DNA of 64,000 bases, from the NCBI RefSeq assembly GCF_000739595.1, contig NZ_BBJP01000036.1, forward strand, positions 62,001-126,000, read 5' to 3'. Of this stretch, positions 9,627 to 59,860 are shown in pieces. Source of the DNA: Halorubrum halophilum (lineage in GTDB: Archaea > Halobacteriota > Halobacteria > Halobacteriales > Haloferacaceae). Numbering within the stretch: the first letter of the stretch is position 1; each line of letters opens with the position of its first letter. The notes below the pieces were generated by a model. It was not told the origin of the DNA. It saw only the letters and a list, made by a program, of their open reading frames with translations, and ran no database searches. The position numbers and the translations under genes are program-made.

Positions 9627-9930
9627 TTATTTATAAAGAAACGCAGCCGGTGCGGTCGGCGCGTGCCTGTGAGCGACCCAACGGGCCGCGAACCGCCCGC
9701 GCGAGGGAGTCGCGGCCGCTTATAAGGGCCGCGACGAGGCTGGGGAGGCGTGAGGCGCGGTTGCGATGCTGTGCGGGGCGGGACTCGAAGGGGCAGTCGC
9801 CGGCGGCAACGCCGCCGGCTTCCAGAGGCGCGAAGCGCCTCGCGGCTGCCCCTTTGGAGGTGTTCACCGTCGATCCGTCATCAACCACTTATAAACAGCC
9901 GACGACGACGCCGTAGACCGTTTATAAATA
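9627..9930 (-). repeat. Hairpin-rich intergenic repeat, copy A (reverse orientation)
   Basis: This is the reverse complement of the family described in the findings. The second linker appears near 9735-9756. It has a hairpin GTCGCGGCC/GGCCGCGAC around a TTATAA loop near 9708-9735, GCGAAGC-type hairpins (including GAGGCGCGAAGCGCCTC), and TTATAAA boxes at both ends. Unlike other copies, its outer arms read AAGGGGCAG and CTGCCCCTT, so the usual mismatched internal loop is a perfect duplex here. It lies between convergent genes. Confidence 0.85.
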
Positions 9931-50436: not shown

Positions 50437-50800
50437 TTTATAAGTGGTTGAACGTGGATCCGCGGTAACGACTTCCAAAGCCCCAGCCGCTCGCTTATAA
50501 GCAGTTGCCGACGGATCGACGGTGAACACCTCCAAAGCCCCAGCTGTGAGGCCGGCGCACGCTCGTTGCGCTCCTCGCTCAGTCGCTTTGCTCCTTCGCT
50601 GCGGTGCTTCCATCGCCTGCGCCGGCCTCACAGCTGCCCCTTTGAGTCCCACCCGACCGCACCGCCCCGCACCTCACGCCTCCCCAGCCTCGTCAGTCGC
50701 CCTCCGCGTTGCTCCGGGCGACTGACTCCCTCGCGGGCTCCGAGCGGCCGCCAGCGGCGGCCGCTCGGAGGCGCGCCACCGCCTCGTCTACTTATAAATA
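50437..50800 (+). repeat. Hairpin-rich intergenic repeat, copy D
   Basis: Leader units start at 50438 and 50495. Hairpin 1 has perfect 19-bp arms CAGCTGTGAGGCCGGCGCA (50541-50559) and its complement (50618-50636). Hairpin 2 has 11-bp arms GTCAGTCGCCC (50692-50702) and GGGCGACTGAC (50716-50726). Hairpin 3 is GAGCGGCCGCC-AGC-GGCGGCCGCTC (50742-50766). It ends CTTATAAATAG. It lies between convergent glycosyltransferase genes. Confidence 0.93.
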
Positions 50801-55633: not shown

Positions 55634-56143
55634 AGTGGTAGAGGATCCGGCGTCATAGAGCGATTTGTCCTCGCTCAGTCTGATTGTCACCGATCGATCT
55701 GCTGTGCGGTGGCGCGTGCCTCCGAGCGCCCGAAGGGCGTGAGGAGCACGCGCGAGGGAGTCGCTGGCGCCATCGGCGCCAGCGACGAGGCTGGGGAGGC
55801 GTGAGGCTGTACGGTGCGGTCGGGTGGGACTCAAAGGGGCAGTCTCCGGCGGCGAAGCCGCCGGCTGCCAGAGGCGCGAAGCGCCTCGCTGTCACCGGCG
55901 CTATGCGCCGGTTTCAAGCGAGAGCTTCGCTCTCGCCCTGCCGCGAGGACGAAGCACGGCGCAGCAAGCACCACAGCGAGCAACGCGAGCGAGGAGCGTG
56001 GTTCGAAACGGCGAAGCCGTTTCGTCATCACGAGACGCCTTCGGCGTCTCGAACGACAGCAAGTCGCGCGAGTCCTCGCGGCTGGGGCTTTGGAGGTACT
56101 CACCGCCGCTCTGTCAGCGATCGCTTTTAAGCGATCGACTATC
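55629..56143 (-). repeat. Hairpin-rich intergenic repeat, copy E (reverse, expanded)
   Basis: This is the largest copy, in reverse orientation. Outer arms are CAAAG-GGG-CAG (55832-55842) and CTG-GGG-CTTTG (56082-56092). Between them are six small palindromes: 55846-55864 and 55871-55887 (GCGAAGC centres), 55894-55912, 55918-55936 (GCTTCGC centre), 56005-56023 (GCGAAGC-like) and 56031-56051 (CC-TTC-GG). A further arm pair GCCGCGAGGAC/GTCCTCGCGGC spans 55940-56082. Hairpin 2 is GTCGCTGGCGCC-ATC-GGCGCCAGCGAC (55760-55786). The left part of the gap, 55634-55700, is unremarkable. Confidence 0.9.
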
Positions 56144-57193: not shown

Positions 57194-57591
57194 ATTTATA
57201 AATCGCTGATTGCGGTCGACCGTGGTCGCCTCCGAAGACCTAGCCGTTCGCTTATAAATGGTCGTCAACAGATCGGCGGCGAACACCTCCAAAGCCCCAG
57301 CCGGGAGGCGGGCGCACGCTCGTTGCGCGCTTCAGTCGCTCGCTCCGCTCGCTCCTTCCAGTGCTTACGTCGTCATCAGAACGCGGAGCGTTCTGATTGG
57401 CTCACGAGAGCGAAGCTCTCGTGAACGCCTGCACCCGCCTCCCGGCTGCCCTTTGTGTCCCGCCCCGAACTGCTCCGCACAGCACCTCACACCTCCCCAG
57501 CCTCGTCAGTCGCCTCCGCTTCGCTCCGGCGACCTCGCGCGTGCTGACTCGCGGCCGCCGAGGGCGGCCGCTCGCAGGCACGCGCCACCGC
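57194..57591 (+). repeat. Hairpin-rich intergenic repeat, copy F
   Basis: Leader units with TTATAAAT are at about 57195 and 57252. Hairpin 1 arms CAGCCGGGAGGCGGGCGCA (57298-57316) and 57430-57448 pair at 18 of 19 positions. Inside hairpin 1 are two extra palindromes, ATCAGAACGC-GGA-GCGTTCTGAT and TCACGAGAGC-GAA-GCTCTCGTGA (near 57376-57423). Hairpin 3 is GCGGCCGCC-GAG-GGCGGCCGC. It lies between the epimerase and argS. Confidence 0.92.
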
Positions 57592-59529: not shown

Positions 59530-59860
59530 TGTTCGATCGGGGTGTTGGCGGCGGATCGATGATGACCATCGCCAAAGGCCAAACCGCTCGCTTATAAATA
59601 GTTGATCGCAGATCGACGGTGACCACCGCCAAAGCCCCAGCCGCGAGGCGCTTCGCGCCTCTGGCAGCCGGCGGCGAAGCCGCCGGCGACTGCCCCTTTG
59701 AGTTCCACCCGACCGCACAGCACCTCACACCTCCCCAGCCTCGCGGCTCACGGCTCGCGGCTCCGCCGCTCGCGTTCGCCGCGTCCCTCGCGCGGCGCTC
59801 CTCGCGGCCGTCAGAGACGACCGCTCGGAGGCGCGCGCCACCGCATCTCATTTATAAACG
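59530..59860 (+). repeat. Hairpin-rich intergenic repeat, copy G
   Basis: A degenerate leader near 59545-59590 is followed by a second unit with CTTATAAATAG (59591). After CAAAGCCCCAG come two palindromes, GAGGCGCTTCGCGCCTC and GCCGGCGGCGAAGCCGCCGG, then CTGCCCCTTTGAG. The second linker is recognisable as CCTCACACCTCCCCAGCCTC, and hairpin 3 is GCGGCCGTC-AGA-GACGACCGC. The right end is ATTTATAAA. It lies between argS and prf1. Its hairpin modules are nearly the same as those in copies A and E. Confidence 0.9.

Follow-up and report, generated by a model that had tools for sequence, protein, structure and literature searches.

We consider it likely that copy E of a dispersed Halorubrum repeat is a non-coding, hairpin-rich host element that has been invaded by small cassettes, and that the cassette named alpha is a non-autonomous mobile element. 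The copy lies in a 64-kb stretch of Halorubrum halophilum DNA, which is called the window in the following. The fixed ends of alpha, the lack of duplication beyond a 3′-flanking G, the kept pairing of its stems and its nesting at hairpin junctions together suggest a hairpin-recognising enzyme. Such an enzyme would act in trans and recognise the hairpins, probably as single-stranded DNA, and would join the cassette 5′ of a G without target duplication; later spread within Halorubrum would have proceeded by copying of the host element and by ectopic gene conversion. On a wider reading, for which we see the balance as about even, the class Haloarchaea harbours tiny two-hairpin mobile DNA which lacks a transposase of its own and is moved by an enzyme system that attaches hairpins 5′ of a G; it would nest in a repeated non-coding element in some genera, and in others in loops of ordinary proteins, essential ones included.

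Palindrome pairs in a dispersed Halorubrum repeat

The first-pass annotation had counted six palindromes of 17–21 bp with three- to five-base centres in the segment 55832–56092. Using perfect arms of at least 7 bases and loops of 3–5 nt as the definition, we obtained exactly six, all spanning 17–21 bp (the hairpins of the three copy E cassettes in Table 1). The centres are indeed short, and the annotated range proved slightly loose, as all six measure 3 nt; the triloops are GAA (three), TTC (two) and TAT (one). In 2000 dinucleotide shuffles of the same segment, 0.18 palindromes were found on average and 3 at most, with six never reached, and the segment is the most palindrome-rich stretch of its size in the window. 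The palindromes pair up into three two-hairpin cassettes (55846–55887, 55894–55936 and 56004–56051), the first two of which are alpha units in tandem. Double hairpins with 3-nt loops were counted 33 times in 557 kb (the window and 40 orthologous regions of relatives, with DNA near a host core making up at most 14%), and 32 of the 33 are no more than 600 bp away from a host core.

The modules had also been annotated as recurring in copies A, G and F of the host element. This holds for A and G, which carry the same alpha with its hairpins at 9799–9841 and 59645–59687; recurrence is limited to these two because the cassette of copy F is of another type, not found in copy E. The stability of the d(GCGAAGC) mini-hairpin was rejected as a key feature, because alpha loops vary in sequence (TAC, TTC, TCC, GAA, GTA and others). 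The conserved trait of alpha is the hairpin pair with short loops and not GCGAAGC.

Table 1. Host-element features of copy E and cassettes in the window (a slash marks the insertion point).
Feature	Position	Strand	Description	Basis
Host element, copy E	55706–56110	+	approximate inner extent, GCGGTGGCGCG... to just past ...CTTTGGAGGTACTCACC	alignment with other genomic copies
Stem 1, copy E	55712–55753	+	equivalent stem of different sequence in other copies	predicted fold
Stem 2, copy E	55760–55786	+	perfect 12-bp palindrome, 3-nt loop	palindrome scan
Conserved core, copy E	55787–55806	+	GAGGCTGGGGAGGCGTGAGG, used for copy counting	in 52/52 genomes of the genus Halorubrum (all those searched)
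Hairpin 1, copy E	55832–56093	+	closed by CAAAGGGGCAG ... CTGGGGCTTTGG, houses three cassettes	sequence, predicted fold
Alpha cassette 1, copy E	55842–55890	+	49 bp, hairpins 55846–55864 and 55871–55887, inserted at GGGGCA/G	
Alpha cassette 2, copy E	55891–55939	+	49 bp, hairpins 55894–55912 and 55918–55936, at CGCT/GCCGCG	
Beta cassette, copy E	56001–56057	+	hairpins 56004–56024 and 56031–56051, ends less certain	palindrome scan
Alpha, copy A	9796–9843	+	3′ end altered	double-hairpin count
Alpha, copy G	59643–59690	-		double-hairpin count
Third cassette type, copy F	57375–57424	-	ATCAGAACGC / TCACGAGAGC hairpins	palindrome scan, pair count

Host copies have in common two variable stems, the core and the large hairpin closed by CAAAGGGGCAG...CTGGGGCTTTGG. 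Counted by the 20-base core with up to 3 mismatches, they number 155 in this genome (75 on the + and 80 on the - strand; backward control, 0), and seven cores fall into the window, at 9736, 26717, 36091, 50672, 55787, 57485 and 59723. An exact-pattern scan of named genomes for the element gave matches almost exclusively in Halorubrum species. Across the order, the core was matched at least once in 63 of 293 genomes, which belong to 20 of 87 genera, and the viral contigs searched gave 0 matches. This occurrence is patchy, with high counts in few distant genera and zero in some neighbours (noted for genus g35 of family f17, G058, g83 and g18); one distant genus ranges from 0 to 135 copies per genome. 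The patchiness suggests that the host element itself also spreads horizontally.

The ends of the element are approximate, because in relatives that lack it the intergenic sequence fails to align in its immediate vicinity. A MITE would have terminal inverted repeats matched by an autonomous element, together with a target duplication. Inverted termini like GATCGATAGCGGGAGT were seen in 22 of 117 host copies, 343–585 bp apart and with no target duplication seen. They belong to a longer form (L006, L012, L013 and 19 other copies of this genome) that measures about 450 bp without cassettes. The usual 3′ half is replaced by a second type, GTCCCGTGAGCGACCGAAGGGAGCGAGCGGGAGCACGGAAGTCGCAGC, behind the core of L008, L048, L057, L090, L112, L119 and others, and many copies have tandem 3′ units of about 57 bp, each ending in TTATAA.

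A structured non-coding RNA, with the cassettes as RNA domains under selection, would fit a predicted fold better than that of shuffled sequences (z -6.9), stems that differ in sequence between copies yet maintain their pairing, and the TTTATAA motifs found about 8 nt upstream of many copies. We nevertheless regard this as unlikely, given that Rfam yielded no match at the gathering threshold in the window, where five permissive matches lay far below the cut-offs, that the element is patchy in the order and missing from the orthologous locus in many relatives (see below), and that alpha also occurs within protein genes.

Junctions and turnover of the alpha cassette

Alpha is composed of 5′-GTC, a first hairpin of the form RCCGG..CCGGY, a TKCMA linker and a second hairpin with CT-3′ at its end, and mostly measures 45–51 bp. 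Among 302 host copies examined, 54 strict units were identified, 27 in each orientation. Part of the constancy of the ends is built in, because the strict filter demanded 5′ GTC and 3′ CT; about 20 more alpha-like pairs have altered 3′ ends. The units occupy eight or more distinct positions in the host element, with junctions including CGAG/GGAGTC, GGTGGC/GCGC, GGGGCA/GCCG, GCCTC/GTCG, GCGGT/GCTTAC, GGTGCT/GCTC and CTCGCT/GCCG. For most junctions the uninserted version is known from other copies, e.g. GGGGCAGCCGCGAGG when empty, and GGGGCA followed by GTC...CT and then GCCGCGAGG when filled. In one nested case (L216), an alpha is located in the linker of another alpha, with the junction CCGGCT/GCCAGA. 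The base 3′ of alpha is G in 52 of the 54 host-element insertions, and target duplication beyond that G was not evident in the 54 units. Their left flanks are variable without a fixed tetranucleotide, the base before the filter-imposed GTC being C in 25, T in 10, G in 10 and A in 9 units. A GTAG tag is absent from the ends of alpha, as is a terminal inverted repeat.

Both loops are 3 nt long in 38 of 41 unique alpha sequences, whereby the loop sequence is free. The linker after hairpin 1 reads TGCCA or TTCCA in one subtype and TKCAA in others, and the second hairpin ends with GCT or CCT and has no inverted tag. Inner pairing of stem 2 was assessed for 37 distinct strings among the matches listed, obtained with a pattern that left the inner stem free; 142 of 158 positions pair, compared to 114 on average and 131 at most for re-paired halves. 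The strict alpha subtype gave 404 matches in 46 of the 52 Halorubrum genomes and 0 in the control; viral contigs gave 0 matches and phages none. Among the matches listed, those from G005 are mostly of one stem variant and those from G003 mostly of another, the picture expected from lineage-specific amplification.

The first-pass annotation had suggested that the element grew by insertion or copying of hairpin units. Filled and empty junctions at eight or more positions, nesting and turnover between orthologues support growth by insertion, the unit being a pair of hairpins. Replication slippage or hairpin-primed synthesis, which had been named among the routes, would have built the palindromes in place. 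Perfect arms with short loops are the expected product of templated palindrome correction, which may account for stems staying perfect. As the source of the units, synthesis on the spot is refuted by the ends that they share. The same cassette recurs at unrelated positions and in either orientation, also within protein genes of other families, which leaves construction in place very improbable.

Turnover was indeed found at orthologous loci, the comparison of which had been advised in the first-pass annotation. Both flanks of locus E were present in 23 relatives (17 of 40 were omitted with one flank unmatched): 8 are filled in the same orientation, 1 is truncated, 12 are empty and in 2 the flanks are not adjacent. 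The carriers differ in their cassette sets, and by eye that of the window copy recurs in none of the 8 element-bearing relatives. In the near relative G036 the arrangement in the window is reversed: hairpin 1 is free of alpha, and a unit is located at the junction of stem 2 and core. Differences were seen at loci F and G as well. At locus C (window 50672–50780 compared with L243 11412–11561), both stems are entirely different in close relatives while the flanks align, a pattern indicative of gene conversion between copies or of one copy replacing another. Given such swaps between orthologues, presence or absence at a single locus can stem from conversion.

These wholesale stem swaps with retained flanks, the uniform orientation of alpha at each host-element junction and an alpha number that tracks the number of host elements (rho 0.61) would all be expected if nothing but gene conversion or recombination between full host elements reshuffled old cassettes, with no mobility at present. 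We think this quite unlikely, since it fails on the eight or more junctions, on the alpha nested in alpha, and on the units in unrelated protein genes, mostly of genomes without a core match. Gene conversion between full elements only, which the first-pass annotation had named as an outcome contrary to its proposal, is rejected for the origin of the cassettes, and conversion probably spreads them later. Hardly more than eight original insertions may lie behind the 54 units, with gene conversion or copying of the host having multiplied them later; with one orientation per junction and ends imposed by the filter, independent entries into host elements have to be counted as at least about 8 and not as 54.

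Alpha units within protein genes

Outside Halorubrum, alpha-like units were found within reading frames of unrelated protein genes. These sites were collected with permissive patterns and represent a sample, not a census: a loose alpha pattern was applied across the order and palindromic matches were picked by eye (10 of 20 regions and L294), the pattern being uninformative for counting, since in most genomes the backward control gave at least as many matches as the pattern itself. The host core is absent from the source genomes G143, G256, G247, G097 and G126, and G218 has 29 cores.

Of 25 orthologues of a CBS-domain protein gene, 2 contain an exact insert of 45 bp (DSEARSASGSRTQSG), and a sister of the same genus is empty. 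Protein uL2 of G218 (L294, 242–1009) has 15 alpha-encoded extra residues, none of which is present in the Haloarcula protein used for comparison, which we take to be that of Haloarcula marismortui. On plasmids, alpha was located in the genes of PpsA (Haloterrigena salifodinae), aconitase (Halobacterium sp. DL1), CobN (Natronococcus occultus), a phosphatase (Halolamina), MerA (Natrinema zhouii and Salinigranum rubrum), a P-type ATPase (Halomarina) and others. PpsA was the only match of a tblastn search with the alpha peptide, and a solved relative of this protein is without most of the alpha-encoded segment.

As expected for in-frame inserts, the additional residues are absent from orthologues, the lengths are multiples of 3 and known essential proteins are among the carriers. 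The length of alpha is a multiple of 3 in 12 of 12 coding units versus 5 of 54 units in the non-coding host element; the reading frame is displayed for 10 of the 12 (L310 and L314 being without one), and the count leaves out L309 and L312 (degenerate or non-coding), L315 (PpsA, missed by the pattern) and some units found later. At 15 of 16 displayed loci (L349 aside), the strand read encodes an SGSRTQSGD-like peptide or a variant of it, the exception being an NAD(P)-binding protein (L354) with the opposite strand. Against a purely coding picture stand two plasmid copies: L349 is part of a hypothetical ORF that is short, and L350 falls in no annotated gene. In protein genes, in-frame insertions would be the only survivors, mostly those on the strand giving a flexible, hydrophilic loop SExxSxSGSRTQSGD. 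The wider haloarchaeal reading would make these polar 15-residue loops the product of an archaeal, probably independent, counterpart of Rickettsia palindromic elements, a view to which we lean no more than away from it.

Candidate enzymes and relation to known elements

Transposition in the manner of REP elements, as put forward in the first-pass annotation together with a search for a Y1/REP-type transposase, agrees with the form of the cassettes; a Y1 enzyme as their driver does not agree with the genomes searched. A classical Y1 (HUH) enzyme, either an IS200/IS605 transposase or a RAYT, that moves the cassettes in trans, which would render them archaeal REP/BIME elements, would fit the two-hairpin form, the 5′ GTC tag, the 3′ CT end and the lack of evident target duplication. 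Furthermore, PF01797 was matched in 41 of 52 Halorubrum genomes, and the in-frame copies resemble those reported for REPs in the accessible part of PMC3733652. This enzyme appears a doubtful mover, however, as PF01797 is absent from 11 of the 52 genomes, in which the mean number of alpha units is 7.4 compared to 7.9 in the others, and as the alpha count does not track the Y1 count over the 52 genomes (Spearman rho 0.14, p 0.33), so that cassette number is independent of PF01797. In addition, the left flanks of the insertions share no tetranucleotide, and the ends of the resident IS605-type locus L039, one of three such loci, proved by eye to be unrelated to the cassettes. A divergent enzyme, or an enzyme lost after the insertions, is possible as the mover of alpha.

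Double-hairpin elements of fungal mitochondria are mobile units of two adjacent short hairpins. Alpha is like them in form; they are mitochondrial and presumably unrelated to it in sequence. REP/BIME elements with a RAYT have a GTAG tag and a linked Y1 transposase, neither of which applies to alpha. The CGTC-tagged REPs, which include RPE-4 and RPE-6, are described in the accessible part of PMC3733652 as having an unpaired 5′ CGTC (or TGTC/CCTC) tag, a stem of 8–9 bp starting from AT pairs and a loop of 4–5 nt, and their dimers as mainly head-head with the tags outside. As far as this account goes, alpha has in common with them short palindromes, a CCA-like tail in the form of the TGCCA linker behind hairpin 1, and both intergenic and in-frame intragenic copies in the absence of a dedicated transposase. 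Its 5′ end may also correspond to their unpaired tag, being close to (C)GTC, with the GTC imposed by the filter and a variable base before it. In contrast to these REPs, alpha has triloops and a GC stem foot (RCCGG), its two hairpins do not form a head-head dimer of tagged inverted copies, and it is archaeal and nests in another repeat. Alpha behaves as REP/RPE elements do, yet lacks several of the traits by which these are defined.

Among haloarchaeal elements, SMR-A of Haloquadratum walsbyi is described as about 110 bp long with prominent terminal inverted repeats, PATEs and IS605 as targets and an unknown mode of mobilisation (PMC3119063, accessible part). Alpha resembles it as a short haloarchaeal element without target duplication or transposase that inserts into palindromic parts, and differs by its length of about 45–51 bp, its two different hairpins and its additional entry into protein genes. 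PATEs have, according to the same part of PMC3119063, near-terminal palindromes, no target duplication and ends related to IS605. Alpha is like them in the first two respects; unlike them, it showed no relation to IS605 at the one locus read, and its left flanks are variable. Two-hairpin cassettes in genes, as found for alpha, are not reported for PATEs in that text. Rickettsia palindromic elements are bacterial, about 150 bp long and located in frame in unrelated protein genes (PMC10969869, accessible part). Alpha is likewise selfish DNA in frame within unrelated protein genes, but it is archaeal, measures about 45 bp and adds about 15 residues.

In its accessible part, a MITE review that covers RPEs in genes names no archaeal case (PMC10969869), and the cited literature, to the extent accessible, describes in-frame selfish palindromes only for bacteria (PMC3733652, PMC10969869). 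No earlier report of the cassette, including the exact peptide, was found in the open-access literature, subscription papers and supplements lying outside the scope of the search. A class-wide archaeal case with defined ends, empty orthologues and an insertion in uL2 would constitute a second system for hairpin movement without a transposase, and would bear on the origin of new protein segments from mobile DNA. As several haloarchaea are genetically tractable, mobilisation is directly testable.

For the beta cassette and the third cassette type, few positions are known and the ends are putative. Relatives of the beta cassette are present on plasmids of Haladaptatus, Natribaculum and Halomontanus. 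A further two-hairpin unit (GCCRGAAATC / GTCAGAAYSC) is located in the linker of the beta cassette in L090 and L158, a case of nesting in a second family.
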